A stretch of 64,000 nucleotides of DNA from Streptomyces sp. DHE7-1 (GTDB lineage Bacteria; Actinomycetota; Actinomycetes; Streptomycetales; Streptomycetaceae), in contig JACJDG010000003.1 in assembly GCA_016432725.1 (NCBI GenBank), positions 620,001-684,000 on the forward strand. The letters are read 5' to 3'. Both the position numbers and the translations under genes were made by a program. Of this stretch, positions 14,263 to 26,190 are shown piece after piece (positions within the stretch are counted from its first letter, which is position 1; every line of letters begins with the position of its first letter). The notes under the pieces were generated by a model. The model was not told where the DNA came from and searched no databases. It was given only the letters and a program-made list of their open reading frames with translations.

Positions 14263-14722
14263 GCGCACCCTCGTTCCGCTCCCCAGGAGCCCTCGGGCAG
14301 AGGGCTCGGAACCACCACCGGGCACGCGGCCTGACCCGGCCCTTGGTGTGTGCATTTCCGCAGTTCACGGATTTGCCTGATGAGAAAAATACGTCGCAGG
14401 CTAACCCACTTTCACGATGCCTCACAAAGCAGCCGCCCGGCCGGAAGAAGTTCACGGCGCGATCCGCGATCCGGGGTGTACGGCGCGTTTTCCCGGGTAC
14501 CCATTGCGTTCGGCCCCTCCCGGAACATCGCCCGGTGCGCCTCCCGGAACGTCCCGCCCGGCGGCGCCGCCCCAGAGGTGGTGCGGCCGCCGCGGGGCCG
14601 TTTCGGGCGCGCGGAGCGAGGGCACCCGTGCCACGCTCGAGACAGGGCACCAGGACCCGGACCCAGGACGTCTGCGCGCCGCGGCCGCCGGCGGGGCGAG
14701 GGCCGAGCGAGGAGGGTGCGGC
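14263..14722. other. Intergenic region between kinase and formate dehydrogenase operon
   Basis: A 460-bp divergent gap. The kinase-proximal 150 bp hold AT-richer stretches (around 14350-14425, for example GATGAGAAAAATACG) that probably contain promoters. The remainder is GC-rich leader towards the Fe-S subunit gene. I see no convincing gene, no clear hairpin terminator and no strong operator dyad. Confidence 0.4.
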
Positions 14723-15658
14723 ATGACCCCGGACGACGACGGCACGAAGGGCGCCGGACCGGCACCCGGGCATCTGCTCCACGGCCCCAGCCGGACGTCG
14801 CGGGTGCCGCCGGCTATCCGGACGCCCCGCCCAGGATGGGCTTCTTCACCGACACCTCCGTGTGCATCGGCTGCAAGGCGTGCGAGGTGGCCTGCAAGGA
14901 GTGGAACGCCGTCCCGGAGGACGGGCTCGAACTGACCGGCATGTCGTACGACAACACGCAGGGCCTCGGCGCCGACACCTGGCGGCACGTGGCGTTCATC
15001 GAGCAGCGCAAACCCTTCGGCGGCCAGGAGCCCGGGGTCGTCCACGAGGACGTCGACGTGTTCGCCGCGGCGGCGGACCTCGGCACCGGCGCCGGCTCGC
15101 CGGGCCGGGGGCCACCGCTCCCCGCCCGGCGCCGCGCCCGCGGGTGCCCCGGCCGGGGAGATCTCCCCCGTCTCGCCCGACGGCCGCACCGAGCTGCGCT
15201 GGCTGATGGCCTCGGACGTGTGCAAGCACTGCACCCACGCGGCCTGCCTCGACGTGTGCCCCACGGGCGCGCTGTTCCGCACCGAGTTCGGCACGGTCGT
15301 CGTCCAGGAGGACATCTGCAACGGCTGCGGCTACTGCGTGCCCGCCTGCCCGTACGGCGTCATCGACCAGCGCCGGGACGACGGCCGGGTGTGGAAGTGC
15401 ACCCTGTGCTACGACCGGCTGGGCGTCGGGATGGAACCGGCCTGCGCCAAGGCCTGCCCGACCGAGTCGATCCAGTTCGGCCCGCTGGACGAACTGCGCG
15501 AGCGGGCCGCGTCCCGGGTGGCCCGGCTGCGGGAGGCCGGGGTGAGCGACGCCCGGCTGTACGGCGAGAGCCCGGACGACGGGGTCGGCGGGGACGGCGC
15601 GTTCTTCCTGCTGCTGGACGAACCGGAGGTGTACGGCCTGCCCCGGACCCGGTCGTGA
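14723..15658 (+). CDS. fdhB: Formate dehydrogenase iron-sulfur (beta) subunit (frame breaks)
   Basis: Electron-transfer subunit of about 312 residues carrying four [4Fe-4S] clusters between the catalytic and membrane subunits. Cys motifs seen in order: CIGCKACEVACKEWN, CKHCTHAACLDVCPTGA, CNGCGYCVPACPYG and CTLCYDRLG...CAKACP, the FdnH/HybA-type ferredoxin layout. It lacks the C-terminal membrane anchor of E. coli FdnH. ATG 14723 has AGGAGG 10-15 bp upstream. One base appears lost in 14785-14788, and two more between about 15105 and 15125, in a Pro/Ala/Gly-rich insertion. The stop overlaps the start of the next ORF by four bases (GTGA), so translation is coupled. Confidence 0.85.
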
Positions 15659-15756
15659 CCACCCGGGACCTGCCCGGCATGTGGCGGCACGCCGCGCTGG
15701 CCGCCGGCTCGCTCGCCGCGCTCGCCGTCACCAGCTTCGTGAGGAGGCCGCGATGA
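15655..15756 (+). CDS. 33-residue single-helix membrane protein
   Basis: A tiny ORF fully embedded in the operon: its GTG overlaps the TGA of the Fe-S subunit (GTGA, 15655-15658) and its own TGA overlaps the ATG of the NrfD-like gene (ATGA, 15753-15756). The product has a short polar head, one hydrophobic segment (AALAAGSLAALAVTSFV) and a basic RRPR tail, giving one membrane helix with the tail inside. Double overlap strongly suggests it is translated. I do not know the family; it could be an assembly or stabilising micro-subunit of the dehydrogenase. Alternatively it is only a read-through link between the two larger genes. Confidence 0.5.
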   Translation: MTTRDLPGMWRHAALAAGSLAALAVTSFVRRPR

Positions 15757-16772
15757 GCGGTTCGGACGTCACCCGGGACGGCCTGCGGGGCGGGCGGCCC
15801 GGCCGTGAGGCCCCGACGGGCGCGCGGGCCGGTCGCCGCCGGCGCCGGCGCGGCCGGGGCGAGCAGCCGATGGTCCCGGAGGCGGAGTTCTCGTCGTACT
15901 ACGGCAAACCGGTGCTGAACAAGCCGACGTGGAAGGCGCTCGACATCGCCGGCTACCTGTATCTCGGCGGTCTGGCCGGGGCGTCGTCGCTGCTCGCGGC
16001 CGGGGGTTCGCTCAGCGGGCGGCCGGGGCTGGCCCGGCCGGCGAAGCTCGGGGCCGCCGGGGCCATCTCGCTGTCCCTGGTCGCGCTCGTGCACGACCTG
16101 GGCCGCCCGGCCCGCTTCCTCCACATGCTCCGGGTGTTCAAGCCCACGTCGCCGATGAGCGTGGGCTCGTGGCTGCTGGTGGGCTATGCCCCGCTGGCGA
16201 TGGCGTCGGCGGCCGCCGACGTCGCGGGCCGCTACCGCCTCGCGGGCTCGGCCGCCACGGCGGGCGCCGCTGTCCTGGGCCCGGCGGTGGCGACCTACAC
16301 CGCGGTGCTCCTCTCGGACACGGCGGTGCCGTCCTGGCACGAGGGCTACCGGCAGCTCCCCTACGTCTTCGCGGGATCCGCGGCCTCCGCGGCCTCCGGT
16401 CTGGCGCTGGCCGCCGCCCCGGCCGGCCAGGCGGGCCCGGCACGCCGGATGGCGGCCCTCGGTGCCGCGCTGGAACTGGGCGCCTTCCGGCTGATGAAGG
16501 GACGTCTCGGACTGGCCGCCGAACCCTACGACACGGGCAGGCCGCACCGGCTGCTGCGCGCCGCCGAGGCGCTGACGGCGGGCGGCGCCGCTCTGGCGGT
16601 ACTGTCCGGGCGGGTGCGTGACCGGCGCCTGGCCCTGGCGGCCGGTGCCGCGCTGCTGTCCGGCTCGGCGGCCCTGCGCTTCGGGGTGTTCCAGGCCGGG
16701 GTGGACTCCGCCGAGGACCCGAAGTACACGGTCGTACCGCAGCGCGAGCGGCTGGCGGCGCGCGGCGGCTGA
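15753..16772 (+). CDS. NrfD/PsrC-like membrane subunit of formate dehydrogenase
   Basis: A 339-residue integral membrane protein. A basic head of about 50 residues (with an Arg-rich run) and the conserved YYGKPVLNKPTWK entry segment precede eight or so hydrophobic helices, with the family feature LVALVHDLGRPARF between helices 2 and 3. NrfD/PsrC subunits pass electrons from an Fe-S partner to menaquinone and replace the cytochrome b subunit of E. coli FDH-N. No heme-binding His pattern is evident. GAGGAGG sits 5 bp before the ATG, which overlaps the preceding small ORF. Intact. It is followed 144 bp later by the catalytic subunit. Confidence 0.85.
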   Translation: MSGSDVTRDGLRGGRPGREAPTGARAGRRRRRRGRGEQPMVPEAEFSSYYGKPVLNKPTWKALDIAGYLYLGGLAGASSLLAAGGSLSGRPGLARPAKLGAAGAISLSLVALVHDLGRPARFLHMLRVFKPTSPMSVGSWLLVGYAPLAMASAAADVAGRYRLAGSAATAGAAVLGPAVATYTAVLLSDTAVPSWHEGYRQLPYVFAGSAASAASGLALAAAPAGQAGPARRMAALGAALELGAFRLMKGRLGLAAEPYDTGRPHRLLRAAEALTAGGAALAVLSGRVRDRRLALAAGAALLSGSAALRFGVFQAGVDSAEDPKYTVVPQRERLAARGG

Positions 16773-16916: not shown

Positions 16917-19900
16917 GTGGGCGTACGCACCTGGATCGACTCCTGGCCGGTCTACCGCCAGCTCACGGGCACGGACCCGCTGGGCCGGGGGGCCGCCGCC
17001 AAGAGCGGGCGCAGCGCGCGGCTGGAGCCCCGGGTGGCCTCGGCGGACCGGGTGGTGAAGTCGGTCTGCCCGTACTGCGCGGTGGGCTGCGGGCAGAACG
17101 TGTACGTCCAGGACGGCGAGGTCACCCAGATCGAGGGCGACCCGGACTCCCCCATCTCGCGCGGCCGGCTGTGCCCCAAGGGCTCGGCCAGTCTGCAGCT
17201 CACCACGGGGAGCGCGCGCGAGCACCAGGTGCTGTACCGGCGGCCGCACGGCACCCGGTGGGAGCGGCTGGACCTGGACACGGCGATGGAGATGATCGCC
17301 GACCGGGTCGTCGAGGCGCGGCGGGCCGGCTGGCAGTGGGAGGCCGACGGCAAGCGCACCCGGCGCACCCTGGGCATCGCGAGTCTGGGCGGGGCGACGC
17401 TCGACAACGAAGAGAACTACCTGATCAAGAAGCTGTTCACCGCGCTGGGCGCGATCCAGATCGAGAACCAGGCGCGTGTTTGACACTCCTCCACCGTTCC
17501 CGGTCTGGGAACCTCGTTCGGACGCGGCGGCGCGACCACCTTCCAGCAGGACCTGCAGAACTCGGACTGCATCGTCATCCAGGGATCGAACATGGCCGAG
17601 TGCCATCCGGTCGGGTTCCAGTGGGTGATGGAGGCGAAGGCGCGCGGCGCGAAGGTCATCCATGTCGACCCGCGGTTCACCCGGACCAGCGCGCTGGCCG
17701 ACGTGCACGTGCCGCTGCGCGCGGGCTCGGACATCGCGTTCCTCGGCGGCATCATCAACCACGTCCTGCGGGAGGAGAAGTACTTCCGGGACTACGTGCT
17801 GGCGTACAGCAACGCCTCGGTGATCCTGCGGGAGGACTTCCGGGACACGGAGGACCTGGACGGCGTCTTCTCGGGCCTGGACACCGACAGCCGCTCCTAC
17901 GACAACAGCAGCTGGCAGTACGAGGGCACCGAGATGCAGGCGGCCTCGGGCGAACGTGATCTGGAGTACGACGAGCGCACCGGCGGTGAGCGCTCCGACG
18001 ACAGCTCGGTCACCGAGGCGGCGCGCGGTGAGGCGCACGGCTCCGGCGGCGCCGTGATCGGCGAGGGCGAGCCCGAACGGGACGAGACGCTGACCCATCC
18101 GCGCTGTGTCCTGCAGGTGCTCAGGCGGCACTACGCCCGCTACACGCCGGAGCTGGTCGAGGAGGTCTGCGGGGTGCCGCGGGACCTGTTCCGGCAGGTG
18201 TGCGAGCTGGTCACGGATAACTCCGGACGGGACCGGACCACGGCGTTCGCGTACGCGGTCGGCTGGACGCAGCACACGGTCGGCGTGCAGTACATCCGCG
18301 CGGCCGCCGTGCTGCAGACGCTGCTCGGCAACATCGGCCGCCCGGGCGGCGGCATCCTCGCCCTGCGCGGGCACGCCTCCATCCAGGGCTCCACGGACAT
18401 CCCGACCCTGTTCAACCTGCTGCCCGGCTACATCCCGATGCCGCACGCCCACCAGAACCAGGACCTCGAAGCCTTCGTGGAGGCCGAGGCGGCGCACAAG
18501 GGCTACTGGGGCAACATGCGGGCCTACCTGGTGAGTCTGCTCAAGGCGTACTGGGGCGACACCGCGACGCGGGAGAACGACTTCTGCTTCGACTACCTGC
18601 CGCGGCTGACCGGCTCCCACTCCACCTACGAGACGGCCATGGCGCAGCTCGAAGGCAGGTGCAAGGGCTACTTCCTGGTCGGGGAGAACCCGGCGGTCGG
18701 CAACGCCAACGCCAAGCTGATGCGCATGGGCATGGCCAACCTGGACTGGCTGGTGGTGCGGGACTTCTCGCTCATCGAGTCGGCGACCTGGTGGCAGGAC
18801 GGACCGGAGATCGAGACCGGGGAGCTGCGCACCGAGGACATCGCCACCGAGGTGTTCTTCCTGCCGGCCGCCGCGCACACCGAGAAGGAGGGCAGCTTCA
18901 CCAACACGCAGCGGCTGCTGCAGTGGCACCACCAGGCCGTGGAGCCGCCCGGCGAGGCGCGCAGCGACCTGTGGTTCACGTATCACCTCGGGCGGCTCAT
19001 CCGGCGGCGGCTGGCCGGGTCCGACGACGAGATGGACCGTCCGGTGCTCGACCTGACCTGGGACTACCCGACCAGGGGCGAGCTGGTCGAACCGGACGCG
19101 GAGGCCGTGCTGGCCGAGATCAACGGCCGTGGGGCCGGTGGCCGTCCGCTCTCGTCCTACGAACAGCTCGAGTCCGACGGGTCCACCGCCTGCGGCTGCT
19201 GGATCTACTGCGGGGTCTACGCCGACGGCGTCAACCAGGCCGCGCGCCGCAAGCCGGGCCGGGAGCAGGACTGGGTGGCGGCCGAGTGGGCGTGGGCCTG
19301 GCCGGCCAACCGGCGCATCCTGTACAACCGCGCCTCGGCGGATCCGGAGGGCAGGCCGTGGAGCGAGCGCAAGGCCCTGGTCTGGTGGGATCCGGACCGG
19401 GGGAGCACGGCGAGTGGTCCGGGCACGACGTGCCCGACTTCAAGAAGGACAAGGCACCCGGTCACGAGCCGCCCGAGGGCGCGACCGGCCCCGAGGCGCT
19501 GTCCGGCCGGGACCCGTTCATCATGCAGGCCGACGGCAAGGCGTGGCTGTACGTGCCGTCGGGGCTCACCGACGGCCCGCTGCCGACGCACTACGAACCG
19601 CAGGACTCCCCGTTCCCGAACCTGCTGTACGGGCAGCAGCGCAATCCGGTACGGCATTTGATGCCGACGCTCCCGGACAACCGCTACCAGCCGAGCGGCG
19701 CCGAGCCCGGCGCGGAGGTGTTCCCGTACGTCGCCACCACCTACCGGCTCACCGAGCACCACACCGCGGGCGGGATGTCCCGCTGGCAGCCGTACCTCGC
19801 CGAACTCCAGCCGGAGTTCTTCTGCGAGATCTCCCCGGAACTGGCCGCCGAGCGGGGCCTCGCGCACACCGGCTGGGCGACGATCGTCAGCGCGCGCGGG

Positions 19901-20197
19901 GTGATCGAGGCGCGGGTGCTGGTGACCGACCGGATGGCGCCGCTGCGGGTGCAGGGCCGGACCCTGCACCAGGTGGGTCTGCCCTACCACTGGGGCCCGA
20001 ACGGCTACAGCACCGGGGACGCGGCCAACGAACTGCTGCACCTGTCCCTGGACCCGAACACGCACATCCAGGAGGCCAAGGCGTTCGCCGTCGACATCCG
20101 TCCGGGTCGCCGTCCGCGGGGTCCGGCGTCGCTGGAGCTGGTGCGTTCCTACCGCGCCCGGGCGGGCATCGACGAGCACACCGGAACAGAACCGTAG
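16917..20197 (+). CDS. fdhA: Selenocysteine formate dehydrogenase catalytic (alpha) subunit
   Basis: A molybdenum/tungsten bis-MGD enzyme of about 1,093 residues that oxidises formate to CO2. GTG 16917 follows GGGAGGAG. An N-terminal [4Fe-4S] cluster is bound by Cys51, Cys54, Cys58 and Cys86 (CPYCAVGC...LCPKG). Codon 189 (17481-17483) is TGA in the context NQARV-TGA-HSSTVPGLGTSFGRG, exactly where FDH-N/FDH-O carry selenocysteine; the frame is unchanged beyond it. The frame continues through AECHPVGFQW, HVDPRFTRTS and the cofactor-binding C-terminal barrel. One base seems lost in the G run 19399-19403; the shifted frame ends at 20197. No twin-arginine signal is apparent at the N-terminus, so the active site may face the cytoplasm. 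Confidence 0.92.
17481..17512 (+). promoter_or_regulatory. UGA selenocysteine codon with bacterial SECIS hairpin
   Basis: TGA at 17481-17483 is followed by a perfect 6-bp stem, GTTCCC (17496-17501) with GGGAAC (17507-17512), closing the loop GGTCT (17502-17506). The E. coli fdhF SECIS loop contains the same GGUCU bases, the ones contacted by SelB, and there they lie 19-23 nt after the UGA. Here they also occupy exactly +19 to +23. This is the recoding signal read by the SelB encoded nearby. Confidence 0.88.
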
Positions 20198-20249: not shown

Positions 20250-21260
20250 TCACCGCAGCACGATCGAGTGGTCCCCGCGGGGCACCAGCTCCCCCACCAC
20301 CGCGGCTCCGGGCACCTCGCCGGCGACGAGCAGCCCGCCCGAGGTCTGCGCGTCCGCCAGCAGCAGCCGGGTGTCCGTGTCCGCGCCGCCGAAGTCGGTG
20401 CACGGCGCGACCCAGTCCAGGTTGCGCCGGGTGCCGCCGCTGACGTAGCCGTCCCGGACGGCCTCCCGGGCGCCGTCGAGGTACGGCACCGCCGCGGTGT
20501 CGACCACGGCGGTCACGCCCGAGGCCCGGGCCAGTTTGTGCAGATGGCCGAGGAGCCCGAAGCCGGTGACGTCGGTGGCGCAGGTGGCGCCCGCGGCCAG
20601 GGCGGCGGCGGACGCGTCCCGGTTCAGGGCCGTCATCGTGGCGATCGCCTGCCCGAACCGCTCCCCCGTGGCCTTGTGCCGGTTGTTCAGCACACCCAGG
20701 CCGAGCGGTTTGGTCAGCGACAGCGGCAGACCGGCGCGGCCTGCGTCGTTGCGCAGCAGCCGGGCGGGGTCGGCGAGTCCGGTGACGGCCATGCCGTACT
20801 TGGGTTCCGGGTCGTCCACGCTGTGCCCGCCGCCGATGTGGCAGCCCGCCTCGGTGGCGATGTCCTGGCCGCCGCGCAGCACCTCACGGGCCAGTTCGAA
20901 GGGCAGCCGGTCGCGGGGCCAGGCGAGCAGGTTGACGGCGAGGACGGGCCGGCCGCCCATGGCGTAGACGTCGGACAGCGCGTTGGCGGCGGCGATGCGT
21001 CCCCAGTCGTAGGGATCGTCGACGACCGGGGTGAAGAAGTCGGCGGTGCACACCATGGCCAAGTCCTGTCCGGGGAGCGCGACGACGGCGGCGTCGTCCC
21101 CGGTGGCGAGGCCGACCAGCAGCGGGCCGGCGCCCTCGGGCGGCGGCGCGCCGAGTCCGGCTACCACGTCCTCCAGCTCGCCGGGCGGGATCTTGCAGGC
21201 GCAGCCGCCGCCGTGGGCGAACTGCGTGAGGCGTACGGACGCTTGGCGGGTCGGTGTCAT
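20250..21260 (-). CDS. selD: Selenide, water dikinase (selenophosphate synthase)
   Basis: A 336-residue cytoplasmic enzyme that uses ATP to make selenophosphate, the selenium donor for SelA. Cys20 and Lys23 in GGGCACKIPP occupy the catalytic Cys/Lys pair of E. coli SelD, so this is the Cys form. Other family marks: LVGLATGDDAAV for Mg-ATP, TADFFTPVVDDPYDWGRIAA, GGHSVDDPEPKYG and TDVTGFGLLGHL. ATG 21260 has GGGAGA upstream. Its start lies only 35 bp from the divergent tRNA-Sec gene, and its stop meets the dehydrogenase terminator. Reading frame intact, full length. Needed for decoding the UGA at 17481. Confidence 0.95.
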   Translation of the reverse strand: MTPTRQASVRLTQFAHGGGCACKIPPGELEDVVAGLGAPPPEGAGPLLVGLATGDDAAVVALPGQDLAMVCTADFFTPVVDDPYDWGRIAAANALSDVYAMGGRPVLAVNLLAWPRDRLPFELAREVLRGGQDIATEAGCHIGGGHSVDDPEPKYGMAVTGLADPARLLRNDAGRAGLPLSLTKPLGLGVLNNRHKATGERFGQAIATMTALNRDASAAALAAGATCATDVTGFGLLGHLHKLARASGVTAVVDTAAVPYLDGAREAVRDGYVSGGTRRNLDWVAPCTDFGGADTDTRLLLADAQTSGGLLVAGEVPGAAVVGELVPRGDHSIVLR

Positions 21261-21295
21261 GTGTGTCTCCCGGGGCACTAGCCTGGTCGAACGGT

Positions 21296-21388
21296 GGAGG
21301 CGTGTGGGTGCCTGGTGGCCCTCCCGGTCTTCAAAACCGAGGTGCCCGAGGATCTCGGGCAGGCGGGTTCGATTCCCGTCCGCCTCCG
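21296..21388 (+). tRNA. selC: tRNA-Sec (UCA anticodon)
   Basis: A 92-93-nt tRNA. The acceptor strands GGAGGCG (from 21296) and CGCCTCC (21381-21387) pair over 7 bp. The anticodon loop CTTCAAA (21329-21335) gives anticodon TCA at 21331-21333, which reads UGA. The variable arm is unusually long, TGCCCGAG and CTCGGGCA pairing over 8 bp around loop GAT (21343-21361), and the T loop is TTCGATT. These are the hallmarks of bacterial tRNA-Sec. CCA is not encoded. The eighth acceptor pair of canonical tRNA-Sec looks mismatched here. Divergent from selD and convergent with selB. Confidence 0.95.
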
Positions 21389-23160
21389 CTCCCCGGCCCG
21401 GGCCGGCAGCGCCGTCGCTGGTCGTCGACGCGTTCCGTGTACCCCTGGGCGTCCAGATGCTCCAGCAGCGGTACGGCCACCCGGCGCGTGGTGTCCAGGG
21501 CGCGCCGGGCCTCGCTCAGCGTGAACGGCTGCGGCAGCCGGCGCAGTTCCGCGGCGGCCGCGGCGTCCGCCCCGGGCAGCAGCACGATGCCGTCGGCGAT
21601 CCGCAGCAGGGCGCCGGTGGCGACGGCGGCGGCCAACGGCGCGCCGGTCAGGCCCAGTCGGGTCAGCCGGCCGGCCTCGGGCGCGCGGAAGGGCGTCCGG
21701 GTCAGATCCCCGCGCACGGCGTCCACGGCCGCCCGGACGGGCGGGGCAGCGCGGGCCGGACGGCGTCGGCGTCGTACAACCGGCCCTGGTGCTCGCGGAG
21801 TCGGGGGCCGCCCGGACGAGGGCGTCCACCAGGGCGCGGTCGGGCAGACCCAGCAGACGGCGGGCCGCCTCGGCGGGGAGGCCGGGTTCCAGCGGGTGCG
21901 TGCCGGCGTACCGGCCGACCTCGGCGGCCAGCCGGTCCCCGAGGCCCGTCCAAACCGTCTCGTCGGCCAGCCAGTCCCCCGCGACGGGTTCGGACGGCGG
22001 CCGCACGCCCATGGCGAGCAGGTCGCGGCGCCGGACCAGACCCCGGCGGCGCAGTTCGGCGGCGCCGTCGGGGTGGCCTGTCGTCGCGGCGAGCTCGGCC
22101 GCGCGGGTACGGGCGGCGCCCCGCCGGGTCAGGCGCGGCGGGCGTACGTCGAGGACGGTGACGCCGCAGGGGGTGCGGCTGCCGCCGGGTTCGCGGAGCA
22201 CCGCCCGGTCTCCGATCCGCAGGGGCAGGGTCCGGTGCAGGGTGAGCCGGGCGGTGTCCTCGCCCAGCGGGCGGACGGTCGCCGGGACGGCGGCCGAGCC
22301 GATGTGCAGGGTGACCGAGCGGGGCAGGTCGCGGACGGGCTCGCCGGTGATCCGGACGTCGGCGGTGCCGGTCGTCAGCCAGCGGTCCGGGGTCAGCAGT
22401 GCCTGGCCGCGCCGCAGTCCGCCGGCCCCCGGCCCGTGCACGTTGACGGCGACCCGGGCCACCGCGCCGGCCTCCGTCCGGTCCTCGTGCAGGGTCTGCA
22501 GGCCGCGCACCCGCAGCACGTCCCCGGCCGCGGTGACCAGCCGGTCGCCGACGCGCAGGGTGCCCGCGCCGAGCGTGCCGGTGACCACGGTGCCGTGGCC
22601 GCGCACGGTGAAGGCCCGGTCCAGCCACAGGCGTATGTCGGCCTCAGTGTCGGGTGCGGGCAGCTCGGCCGTCAGTGCCGCCAGTTCGGCGCGCAGGGCG
22701 TCGAGTCCGGCGCCGGTGACCGCGCTGACGGCCACGGACCGCGCCGGGCCGAGGGAGGTGGCGGCGAGTCGCTCGGCGGCGTCCGCGCGCACCGGCTCGG
22801 GGTCGGCGAGGTCGCTGCGGGTCACCGCGAGGACGGCGTGCCGGACGCCGAGCGCGTCGAGGATCGCCAGGTGCTCCTGCGACTGGGGCTGCCAGCCCTG
22901 GTCGGCGGCGACGACGAACAGCACGGCGGGCACCGGGCCGGCACCGGCGAGCATGGTCGCGACGAAGCGCTCGTGTCCGGGCACGTCGACGAAGGCGAGG
23001 TACTCGCCGTCCGGTTCGAGCCGCGTCCACACGAAGCCGAGGTCGAGGGTCAGCCCCGGCGGCGCTCCTCCTCGTAGCGGTCCGGCTCCATACCGGTGAG
23101 CGCCCGCAGCAGGGTGGACTTTCCGTGGTCCACGTGGCCGGCGGTGGCGAGGACGTGCAC
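21331..23160 (-). CDS. selB: Selenocysteine-specific elongation factor SelB (three frame breaks)
   Basis: A GTPase of about 610 residues that delivers Sec-tRNA to UGA codons marked by SECIS. G1 motif GHVDHGKST at residues 9-17, G3 DVPGHERF, then an EF-Tu-like beta-barrel pair (TVVTGTLGAGTL, GQALLTPDRW) and winged-helix repeats at the C-terminus that grip the mRNA hairpin. GTG 23160 follows GGAGAGG, with the selA stop 5 bp earlier: a translationally coupled selA-selB pair. Single-base losses fit at 23054-23058, 21793-21797 and 21743-21746. The last 26 codons run antisense through the tRNA-Sec gene and stop opposite its anticodon, so the true end may be somewhat upstream. Confidence 0.88.
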
Positions 23161-23165
23161 GGCGC

Positions 23166-24505
23166 CTACCTCTCCGCGGCCGGGCGGGCCGCCCGTACGG
23201 CCCCGGCCAGCAGTTCGTCGTCCTCCGGCGGCACGGCCCGCAGGTCGAGCAGGCACCGCCCGGCCTCCAGCCGGCCCACCACGGGATCCGGCCGATGCGC
23301 AGGGCCGCGGCGTACGGCTCGGGCAGCGACAGCGCGGCGCTGGGCAGCGTGACCCCGGGCGCCCCTCCCCCGCCGACCGTGGCGGCTCCGGCGACGGCCC
23401 GGACGTCGATCCCGTCGGCCCCCAGGGCGGCGGCGAGCCGGTCGGCGCGGTCCTCGAGACCGGCCGGGTCGGCGGTGAGGGCGGTGGCGGTCGGAGTGGG
23501 CGGTCCGGTGAGCGTGGCCTCCAGGGCGGCCAGGGTGAGCTTGTCGACCCGCAGGGCGCGGGCCAGCGGGTGCCTGGCCAGGGCGCGCACGAGGTCGGTG
23601 CGGCCGAGCAGCAGCCCGCACTGGGGGCCGCCGAGCAGTTTGTCGCCGCTCGCGGTGACGAGGGCGGCCCCGGCGGCGAGGGCCGTGGCGGCGTCGGGCT
23701 CCCCGGGCAGTTCCGGGTGCGGGGCGAGCAGCCCGGAGCCGATGTCCACGACGACGGGCACCGGGAGCCCGGCGAGTTCGCTCACCTCCGCGCCACGGGT
23801 GAATCCGGTGATGCGGAAGTTGGAGGGGTGCACCTTGAGGACGAAGCCGGTCGCGGGTCCGACGGCGGCGGCGTAGTCGGCGGCGGTGGTGCGGTTGGTG
23901 GTGCCGACCTCGCGCAGCCGGGCGCCGGTGGAGACCAGCAGGTCCGGCAGGCGGAAGCCGTCCCCGATCTCCACCATCTCGCCCCGGCTGATGACGATCT
24001 CCCGGCCGGCCGCGAGGGCGGTGGCGGCCAGTACGAGCGCGGCGGCCCCGTTGTTGACGACGTGCGCGGCGCCGGCGGCGGGGACGCGGCCGGCGAGCGC
24101 CGCCATGGCCGAGCGGCCGCGCCGGGCCCGTACCCCGGTCGCCAGGTCGAGTTCCACGTCGGTCGGCCCGGCGGCCGCCGCCACCGCCTGCCGGGCGGCC
24201 GCCGACAGCGGTGCCCGGCCGAGGTTGGTGTGCAGCAGGACGCCGGTCGCGTTGATCACCGGCCGGAGCCCGCCGGCCGTGCCGGGGAGCAGGGCGACGG
24301 CGGTGTCCGGGACCTGCTCCGGGGTGATGCCGCCCTCCCGCGCCCGGCCCTGCGCCCGCCGGACCGCGCCCTTGACCACATCCGCTCCGAGCCGCCCCAC
24401 GGCCTCGGCCAGCCGCGGGTCGCGCAGCACCACGTCGGTCCGCGGAATCCGCCGCCGGGCGTCACCACCACCGGTCCGCCCGACCGCCGGGCCTGGCGCG
24501 GGCAC
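23166..24505 (-). CDS. selA: L-seryl-tRNA(Sec) selenium transferase (frame break near 23282)
   Basis: A PLP enzyme that turns Ser-tRNA(Sec) into Sec-tRNA(Sec). Family marks: RPVINATGVLLHTNLGRAPL, VVNNGAAALVL, SRGEMVEIGDGFR, EVGTTNRT, KVHPSNFRITGF, VDIGSGLL and SGDKLLGGPQCG with the cofactor Lys. One base is missing near 23282 in the PVVG segment; the next frame gives the expected VVGRLEAGRCLLDLR end and a TAG at 23166. The catalytic core is unmistakable, but the start is not: GTG 24505 in frame lacks a ribosome site, and a Pro/Ala/Gly-rich open frame continues upstream to about 25023 after one more lost base. Cotranscribed with selB. Confidence 0.88.
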
Positions 24506-25125
24506 GACGGTGTCCGGGGTGGTTGCCGGGGCGCCGGCCTCTGTCGGGGGGCCGGCCGGAGTGCCGGCGTGTTCCGGGGGCCGGCCGGGGTCCCGGCGTC
24601 CTTCCGAGGCTTCGCCGGATGACCGGCGTCCACCTGGGTGCGTGCCGGAGCACCCGCGTCCGGTCCGTCCGGGACTCCGGAGCCGCGTCCCGCCCGAGCA
24701 CTCGCACCGACCCCGTCCCCATGCCGCCACCGGCCCGCCCCGGTCGCCCCGACGCCGACACCGCCCCCTTCGCCCGAGGGACCGTCCGCAGCGCCGCGGG
24801 CGGGCGCCGCGGTCTCCGGCCGCATGGCCCCACGCCCCGCACGCGGCCGGACGGAACCGGCGTCGTTCACGGAACCGGCCGGGGCATCGGCGTCGGGTCC
24901 GCACGGGACTCCGGAGCCGCGTCCGGCGGCGAGACCGGGGCACGGGCCCGCCGGGGCCCCGGAGCCGGTCCCGGGGGTGTCCGGGGTCCGGCCGTCCCTG
25001 CCGGGTGCCATCCGCTCCTCCATGCCGCCCCCGTTCCTCCGGGCCCGCCGTGCCCCTGAGGGCATCGCTCATCGTCCTCCAGTGCCCTTGCCCGGCCGTT
25101 CGACACGCCGGGTGGACCGGCCGTG
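24506..25125 (-). other. Low-complexity region, possible N-terminal extension of SelA
   Basis: This 620-bp stretch lies between selA and the MASE1 gene. On the minus strand it is open from ATG 25023 (or 25011, preceded by GGAGGAG) in the frame one base away from selA. It would encode about 190 disordered Pro/Ala/Gly-rich residues. A duplicated unit is visible (GRGSGVPCGPDADAPA and GRGSGVPDGPDAGAPA); the DNA copies share GGGACTCCGGAGCCGCGTCC near 24670 and 24903. If a single base was lost near 24430-24505, this is a SelA head; otherwise it is non-coding repeat DNA. Confidence 0.4.
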
Positions 25126-26131
25126 TCACGGGCCGCTGTCGGGTTCCCGCGGCCGGTCCTCGGAGCGCGGGGCGGCCGGGGCGGGGGTGTCTCGCCCGCG
25201 GTGAGGTGGGCCAGGACCTCCACCAGTTCCTTGCAGGCCTTCTCGACGGAACGCCGGGTGTTGCGCTGCTCGGTGATCACGGCGGACAGCAGCAGCGCGG
25301 TCAGTGCCATGGTCCCGTTGAAAGCCTGGAGTTTCGCCATGATCTCGACCCGGTTCAGCCCGGCGAAGGCGCCGGCGGCGTCCGTGGCCGTGACGGTGGC
25401 CAGGACAGAGGTCAACAGGGCGCAGGCCATGCTGCCGGCGAGCCGGAAGCGCAGCGCGGCCCAGATGATCAGCGGATAGACGAGGAAGAGCAGGCTGATC
25501 GAGCTGTAGGCGGCCAGCGGCACGATGGCGCAGGCGACGACGGCCAGCGCGGTGGCCTCCTTCCAGCGCCTCAGCGGTGGTGGCCAGCGGGTGCGCCGCA
25601 GCAGCAGGAGGACCGGCGTGACGAGCAGGACGCCCATGGCGTCGCCGACCCACCAGGCCAGCCAGACGGACCCGAAGGCGTGCGGGGCCAGCTTGTCGGT
25701 GAGGACGAGGATGCCGACGCCGAAGGTCGCGCTGATGGTCATGGCCGCCAGCGCACCGAGGAACACCAGGGCGAGCCCGTCGCGCAGCCGGCTGATCGTG
25801 GGGCGGAAGCCGTACCGGCGCAGCAGCAGAACCGCGACCACCGGTGCCACCGTCTGTCCGAAGAGGATGCCGATCACGTCCGGGCCCGGGGTACCGATCG
25901 ACCAGGTGGCGAACAGCGCGCCCACCGTGATGGCCGGCCAGCATCCGAGGCCGAAGAACAGCAGGGCGGCCACGGCCACCCGGTGGGCGGCCAGATCGGG
26001 GTGACGACGGCACCCTCGACGGCCAGATGGAGCAGGAGTCCGAGGCGCGCCGACCCGTAGTAGCAGGCGGCGACCGCCAGAAGCTGGACGGCGTAGCCGC
26101 CCGGCCGGCGCGGATCCTGGAATGGCACCAC
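25126..26131 (-). CDS. MASE1-domain membrane sensor protein (two frame breaks)
   Basis: An integral membrane protein of about 335 residues with eight or so hydrophobic helices: YAVQLLAVAACYYGSARLG, then PIWPPTG, LFFGLGCWPAITVGALFATW, and WLAWWVGDAMGVLLVTPVLL. The P-x-W-P-P-T-G and WVGDAxGxLLxTP patterns mark the MASE1 sensory domain, usually fused to kinases or cyclases. Here only a short helix (AVITEQRNTRRSVEKACKEL) follows, so no output domain is present. Start is GTG 26131 or 26128. Single-base losses fit at about 25981 and 25187, giving a stop at 25126. It lies 59 bp after the PP2C gene stop and is probably cotranscribed with it, suggesting a sensor/phosphatase pair. Confidence 0.7.
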
Positions 26132-26190
26132 AGCAGCAATCTCACACCGGTGGCCCTCCCTGTGCGAGGCGAGAGGCGTCCGGTCCCGCT

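Follow-up and report, generated by a model that had tools for sequence, protein, structure and literature searches.

A probable selenocysteine formate dehydrogenase gene in a frame-broken assembly of Streptomyces sp. DHE7-1, and the base that precedes its UGA codon

Background

In the genome assembly of Streptomyces sp. DHE7-1, a gene for the catalytic subunit of a formate dehydrogenase (FDH) is crossed by an in-frame TGA, which raises the question of whether this codon ends the protein or is read as selenocysteine (Sec). The gene, fdhA (16917-20197, plus strand), lies in a window of 64,000 nucleotides, by which we mean the whole stretch that was analysed (positions 620,001 to 684,000 of contig JACJDG010000003.1; assembly GCA_016432725.1, 8.14 Mb in three contigs). 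By profile match it belongs to the actinobacterial family NF041513, and it is intact in relatives; the copy in this assembly is interrupted twice, by the UGA and by one net -1 frame change. A sequence-only reading of the window had proposed a Sec enzyme of the FDH-N/FDH-O kind with an E. coli-like selenocysteine insertion sequence (SECIS) behind the UGA. Our comparisons support a Sec formate dehydrogenase with a bacterial SECIS, as the TGA and the hairpin are conserved and the complete Sec-decoding set, selA, selB, selC and selD, adjoins fdhA (selA and selB being frame-broken in the assembly). Because of the hairpin downstream and the flanking Sec genes, the stop is likely read as Sec. With high confidence we regard fdhA as specifying an FDH-N-like molybdopterin Sec enzyme whose UGA at 17481 would be decoded by way of the hairpin at 17496-17512, the breaks in fdhA, fdhB, selA and selB being very likely errors of the assembly.

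Results and discussion

The in-frame TGA and its hairpin

Counted from the GTG at 16917, the TGA at 17481-17483 (plus strand), the predicted Sec codon, is codon 189, and it is followed by CAC, a histidine codon. In alignment, codons 189-190 fall opposite the Sec codon of E. coli FdnG (codon 196) and the histidine after it, which is where the TGA had been placed from the sequence alone; an active-site Sec-His is shared with E. coli FDH-N (FdnG) and FDH-H (FdhF).

Sequence search, conservation, covariation and the folding of a 36-base piece point to the upper stem-loop of a SECIS at 17496-17512 (plus strand), in which a 6-bp stem, GTTCCC/GGGAAC, encloses the loop GGTCT at 17502-17506. With up to 2 mismatches allowed, the stem-loop pattern occurs once in the window, where shuffling predicts 0.03 occurrences. 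GGTCT begins at +19 after the UGA both in fdhA and in E. coli fdhF, so the fdhF-like spacing first noticed in the sequence stands; the loop of E. coli fdnG is AGTCT, and the apical loops of the relatives are GGTCT, AGTCT or AGTTT. The description of this element as E. coli-like is right for the loop and the spacing, and fails for the stem. The E. coli fdhF SECIS has a bulged U in the stem that is bound by SelB, whereas the stem in fdhA is a continuous 6 bp, and the U at +14, in the place of the E. coli bulge, is normally paired (116 of 120 distinct Sec sites). The bacterial SECIS (bSECIS) model of PMC13188914 calls for an apical loop of 3-9 nt with G in the first two loop positions, an upper stem of 4-16 bp, 16-37 nt between UGA and loop, and a minimum free energy of -7.5 or lower; the fdhA hairpin agrees with this model as given there, having a 5-nt loop with G first, a 6-bp stem, 18-nt spacing and -9.0 kcal/mol.

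The hairpin is beyond chance, and its conservation is stronger evidence for it than folding is. A 36-base fold (+1 to +36) yields the hairpin at -9.0 kcal/mol, and the lowest probability among the three inner pairs in such folds is 0.67 for the window, with medians of 1.0 for Sec sites and 0.0 for cysteine (Cys) sites. The consensus fold of the 120 distinct Sec sites, at -10.35, contains a further pair and a loop of 3 nt; no hairpin appears in the consensus fold of the 28 distinct Cys sites. Among 80 aligned genes, the excess synonymous identity over codons 188-201 reaches 0.447, compared with a mean of 0.117 elsewhere (standard deviation 0.052, maximum 0.267), and only four of 785 testable columns, codons 188, 194, 196 and 198, have A or T as third base in more than 90% of rows. 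Among the distinct Sec sites, no two site columns share as much mutual information as the pair +15/+27 (0.87, the next being 0.44); this pair occurs as TA, CG, TG, GT and GC, plus two GG mismatches, and has changed at least 19 times on the tree. At one site the outermost stem pair has gone from GC to AT on both sides. The pairs +16/+26, +17/+25 and +18/+24 are invariant among Sec sites, and +14/+28 is a TT mismatch in four of them.

Selenocysteine and cysteine among relatives

If close relatives had a sense codon at this position and no hairpin, the proposed recoding would be hard to defend. From a scan of named genomes we took the best 80 of 441 loci, 79 of which cover the Sec site, and both TGA and hairpin are present in all 79, so this objection failed. 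A kinship set of 61 genomes contained 18 with the enzyme above the cut-off, 11 with TGA and 7 with a cysteine codon at the site; when all 61 were searched, a tRNA-Sec match of at least 52 bits was found in 11/11 of the TGA genomes and in 0/7 of the Cys genomes. A survey of the class sampled 394 genomes and found the enzyme above the cut-off in 107. In the 106 survey loci counted (105 new ones and L024, leaving out pieces, as in genomes G124 and G200, and genes of the first set) the codon at the site is TGA in 83, TGC in 21, TGT in 1 and TAG in 1. Sec and Cys are separated by a single supported branch on a tree built from 113 Sec and 28 Cys rows (141 in all), and the cysteine codons are confined to one separate, more distant clade, which is without the hairpin. 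The selenoprotein gene is very probably a working one in the relatives.

At locus L266 (genome G440), an FDH gene of the NF041513 family has TAG as its Sec-site codon; the hairpin loop is that of fdhA, an A precedes the TAG, and ARAGORN detected no tRNA-Sec in the 20 kb examined. Formate dehydrogenases with UAG as Sec codon are described from Geodermatophilaceae (PMC5330540, which cites Mukai 2016), the codon being UAG there and UGA in fdhA, and from its sequence we take L266 to be of that kind. In genome G024, where the best match to the tRNA-Sec model scores just 44.1 bits, locus L056 (9480-10011) is likely an FDH remnant, in two short pieces with an internal stop.

The base before the Sec codon

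Codon 188, GTT (17478-17480, plus strand), immediately precedes the UGA, and its third base is, unexpectedly, A or U in all Sec rows read from the class. We compared 174 Sec rows, which represent 120 distinct sites; the window and the nearest named loci, almost all of them Streptomyces, contribute 80 of these rows. The preceding base is T in 145 rows and A in the other 29, the latter being 28 TGA rows and one TAG row; G and C do not occur. Before the Cys codon the base is G or C in 29/29 rows (28 distinct). Codon 188 in the Sec rows is ATT (75), GTT (70) or ATA (29), codons that are rare in the rest of the same genes, where GTT makes up 1.0% of valine codons, and ATT and ATA make up 2.0% and 0.6% of isoleucine codons; the median third-position G+C of the Sec FDH genes of the class is 96%. 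GTA, at 1.9% of valine codons, is never found before the Sec codon. As a control we used the terminal TGA of long G+C-rich open reading frames (ORFs), selected mechanically from control stretches, and there the preceding base is C in 104, G in 47, A in 22 and T in 3 (n=176).

From a search of the phylum 30 loci were read and two set apart (L324, which is of the window's class and already counted, and L313, a Cys gene with C before the codon). The 28 Sec loci left, from other classes, divide into 23 with A, three with T, one with G (L327) and one with C (L328), giving A/U in 26/28; the bias says less in these classes because several of the genes have a third-position G+C of 41-65%. In E. coli, both fdhF and fdnG have C before the UGA, in contrast to the A/U of fdhA.

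Across the 113 Sec rows of the tree, at least 22 substitutions have exchanged T and A at this base, and none has led to G or C. Since Sec and Cys form one split on the tree, independent gains of Cys could not be used to test the rule, and support for it comes from constancy. No covarying partner was found for the base (across the columns of the site its mutual information never exceeds 0.21), which speaks against a base pair. A possible route for the effect, at the level of a guess, could be competition with the release factor or the tRNA in the ribosomal P site. The rule is based on FDH genes only; genomes G038 and G056 have tRNA-Sec and selD and no FDH of the NF041513 family, and no TGA-bearing FdhF-type gene was found in them. 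On balance, these comparisons of sequences incline us to think that in Actinomycetota FDHs the third base of the P-site codon (AUU, GUU or AUA) must be A or U. If so, the signal would be two-sided, P-site codon and hairpin, unlike the hairpin alone of E. coli. Older E. coli work on UGA context appeared in subscription journals. A base requirement before bacterial Sec UGA was not found in the accessible parts of the literature on UGA context, mostly non-subscription (including PMC4513850, PMC8659212, PMC12013277, PMC13188914 and PMC5311926), and an earlier appearance in print is quite possible.

The second frame break and the alternatives

The sequence-only reading treated 16917-20197 as one frame apart from the UGA. 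This did not hold, as the span is 3281 bases, which is not divisible by three, and a second break, a net -1 relative to the relatives, lies in a single-base run at 19399-19403 (plus strand). The NF041513 match stays in one frame to residue 832 and then follows the frame of ORF 18659-20197 from about 19403. Its first part alone (residues 6-832) scores 1584.5 bits against a cut-off of 1400, which places the product in the family, and the second-frame part scores 435.3 bits. Of 205 sequences at the break site, a number that includes the window, E. coli fdnG and some duplicates, 203 keep one frame; the two exceptions are the window itself and the incomplete gene L296, which lies where its contig ends.

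Compared with its nearest relative, L064, the window has 12 net frame changes over seven genes and 10,791 bases, ten of them exactly -1, one -2 and one +22 near the start of fdhB; they are located in fdhB, fdhA, selB, selA and an unrelated gene with a MASE1 domain. Fourteen other Streptomyces loci (two of them compared over 9,783 bases) have 0 to 4 changes each, 26 in total, and all 26 lie no more than 45 bases from a gene end or within the opening 180 bases of fdhB. An earlier census over all conserved L064 ORFs, with 9 changes in the window and 0 to 3 in ten relatives, is superseded because it counted shadow ORFs in G+C-rich DNA as genes.

A coding-frame hidden Markov model was run on 20 stretches of 20 kb from the main contig (L150-L169; 343,365 coding bases) and on 20 control stretches from four relatives (343,521 coding bases). 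It counted 79 bases lost and 6 gained in the source genome, compared with 10 and 6 in the controls, an approximately eight-fold excess of losses; for the window itself the counts are 13 and 1. The losses are uneven, ranging from 0 to 11 per stretch with none in two stretches, and the model misses many breaks that are seen by alignment: it reports a single one in fdhA and overlooks those of selB and selA altogether. With genome G020 as reference, rpoB of the source genome has three net -1 changes and tuf one, while in genome G005 rpoB has none and tuf has a single change, of -2, right where its ORF begins. The rpoB gene is essential to any cell, and its being broken here means that bases have gone missing from the assembly; the simplest account of the break in fdhA is that it is another such loss. 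To judge from the assembled sequences, the breaks in fdhA (19399-19403), fdhB, selA and selB are very likely assembly errors and not decay.

The alternative that survives best is that the frame changes are real, the Sec system having been lost and fdhA, selA, selB and fdhB being pseudogenes in decay. Five genes of the region (fdhB, fdhA, selB, selA and the MASE1 gene) do show net frame changes against the nearest relative, as decay would have it, but the one-base losses are spread along the chromosome (79 in the 20 stretches) and also strike the unrelated MASE1 gene, while the UGA, the hairpin, the tRNA-Sec and selD are untouched. Because rpoB and tuf show the same one-base losses, we rejected decay, which we consider very improbable. 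We give still less credence to a programmed frameshift or transcript slippage near 19399-19403 that would produce two forms of the enzyme: the break does sit in a single-base run, but it is private to the window among the compared sequences except for the partial L296, the other 203 of the 205 read straight through, and rpoB holds similar breaks. The idea that translation simply ends at UGA 189, or that this UGA stands erroneously in place of a cysteine codon, has a negligible chance of being right, for although TGC or TGT stands at the site in 7/17 kinship-set loci and 22/106 class-survey loci (one locus being in both), those loci all belong to one other clade, whereas TGA is found in 79/79 of the nearest loci, from independent genomes, and is accompanied by the hairpin and the Sec genes.

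Several results weigh against Sec decoding of the UGA combined with assembly error at the breaks. When 50 bases (17481-17530) are folded, another structure is preferred over the hairpin (z +0.86), so that in the segment singled out by the sequence-only reading the hairpin is not the best structure. Four of the 7 Cys genomes have weak matches to the tRNA-Sec model, at 47.2-48.8 bits with an Rfam gathering score of 47, which we take, without proof, for other long-armed tRNAs. TIGR00475, the SelB model, falls below its cut-off in the source genome, probably because selB is broken in the assembly; the intact SelB of L064 itself passes narrowly (253.7 against 242.25). In the source genome rpoC and the ORFs taken for fusA and rpsG are intact, which shows that the errors are uneven. 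Finally, there is a small probability that the change at 19399-19403 is a true mutation, our judgement having been made from the assembled sequence.

Neighbouring genes and the Sec machinery

Upstream of fdhA on the plus strand are the genes for two further subunits. The iron-sulphur subunit gene, fdhB (14462-15757, ends approximate), was delimited by profile matches and comparison with relatives and has several frame changes in the assembly; in L064 the corresponding product matches Fer4_11 above the cut-off and scores 187.6 bits with TIGR01582, the model for FDH-beta, for which the cut-off is 334.7. The NrfD-type membrane subunit gene, fdhC (15750-16772, start approximate), lies inside ORF 15681-16772 and matches PF03916.

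Downstream, the selenophosphate synthetase gene selD (20250-21278, minus strand; TIGR00476, 380.7 bits) is one in which no frame change was found. It is followed by selC, a tRNA-Sec gene with anticodon TCA (21296-21389, plus strand) that was found by ARAGORN and by RF01852 (77.3 bits, match at 21296-21387). The genes for the Sec elongation factor, selB (21331-23154, start approximate), and for Sec synthase, selA (23172-24500, ends approximate; TIGR00474, 381.8 bits, and PF03841), are on the minus strand, with three and one net -1 frame changes in the assembly, respectively. An apparent selA-selB fusion (ORF 21278-25129, minus strand, 1283 aa) was rejected, as the two are separate ORFs in L064 and the shared frame comes with the frame changes. 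The MASE1 sensor-domain gene lies upstream of selA (24867-26145, minus strand) and is also frame-broken in the assembly.

The 3' end of selB is antisense to the tRNA-Sec gene at 21331-21389, an overlap of 58-59 bases that places the stop codon of selB within the tRNA gene. The overlap is present in the window and in 15/17 tested loci (L139 is unclear and L143 has none). In PMC8124441, tRNA-Sec is described as overlapping selB in reverse in Shewanella and Ferrimonas, with full overlap in Shewanella; there, as here, the strand complementary to tRNA-Sec encodes the C-terminal end of SelB, whereas the overlap in Streptomyces is partial.

By analogy with E. coli, SelA and SelD would build Sec on the tRNA encoded at 21296, SelB would carry the Sec-tRNA to the ribosome while holding the hairpin loop, and UGA 189 would yield Sec as a metal ligand. 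Electrons from formate would pass to the quinone pool through the iron-sulphur and NrfD-type membrane subunits.

Relation to known enzymes

On the tree, fdhA lies closest to the FDH gene of Streptomyces sp. 1-11 (93% over 808 columns). Among solved structures, the best match of the fdhA product is E. coli FDH-N (1kqf), and its first part is 37% identical to FdnG. E. coli-type FDH-N and FDH-O are marked by a twin-arginine export signal on the alpha subunit, by a cytochrome b gamma subunit and by an FDH-beta iron-sulphur subunit whose gene adjoins that of alpha. The FdnG sequence contains SRRQFFK; by inspection no RR occurs within the first 40 residues of the fdhA product, and the same is true of L064. 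The membrane gene adjoining fdhA is of the NrfD type (PF03916) and not a cytochrome b gamma gene, a statement about this locus and not about the rest of the genome. The FDH-N/FDH-O label can therefore be kept for the likeness in sequence, and not for the twin-arginine motif or the membrane subunit, in which the enzyme differs from E. coli FDH-N and FDH-H. As the FdnG-like twin-arginine start has no counterpart in fdhA, the enzyme probably faces the cytoplasm.

A Sec formate dehydrogenase with SECIS and selABCD was reported in 2015 from Streptomyces incarnatus NRRL8089 (PMC4498112). With this report and an existing NF041513 model, the core reading of fdhA is not new, and the gene is a Sec FDH of a family already known in Streptomyces. 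The S. incarnatus report prints no hairpin sequence and makes no comparison across relatives, and in contrast to that copy the one in the window is frame-broken in its assembly.

Automatic annotation had been expected to split such a gene, and this expectation was wrong for at least two relatives. In Arthrobacter sp. YA7-1 pYA7-1a and in Tsukamurella plasmid 17, the homologue is annotated as a single coding sequence across the TGA at codon 189, in annotations of RefSeq style that we take to be those of the Prokaryotic Genome Annotation Pipeline (PGAP), and NCBIfam holds NF041513 under the name formate_DH_Act. Both plasmids share with the window a related enzyme, iron-sulphur and NrfD subunits, selD, selA and selB, but there fdhA comes first, and selA and selB are on the fdhA strand.

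Conclusion

The comparison clears up the record of this gene: its UGA is very probably a functional signal, its second break most likely stems from an error of the assembly, and a correct annotation across the UGA already exists for at least two relatives. Other findings in the window that rest on broken or fused frames need to be checked against an assembly prone to deletions. If the base before the UGA alters the balance between Sec insertion and stopping, it would offer a simple lever on the efficiency of recoding, and in G+C-rich genomes a means of telling Sec UGA codons from stop UGA codons.

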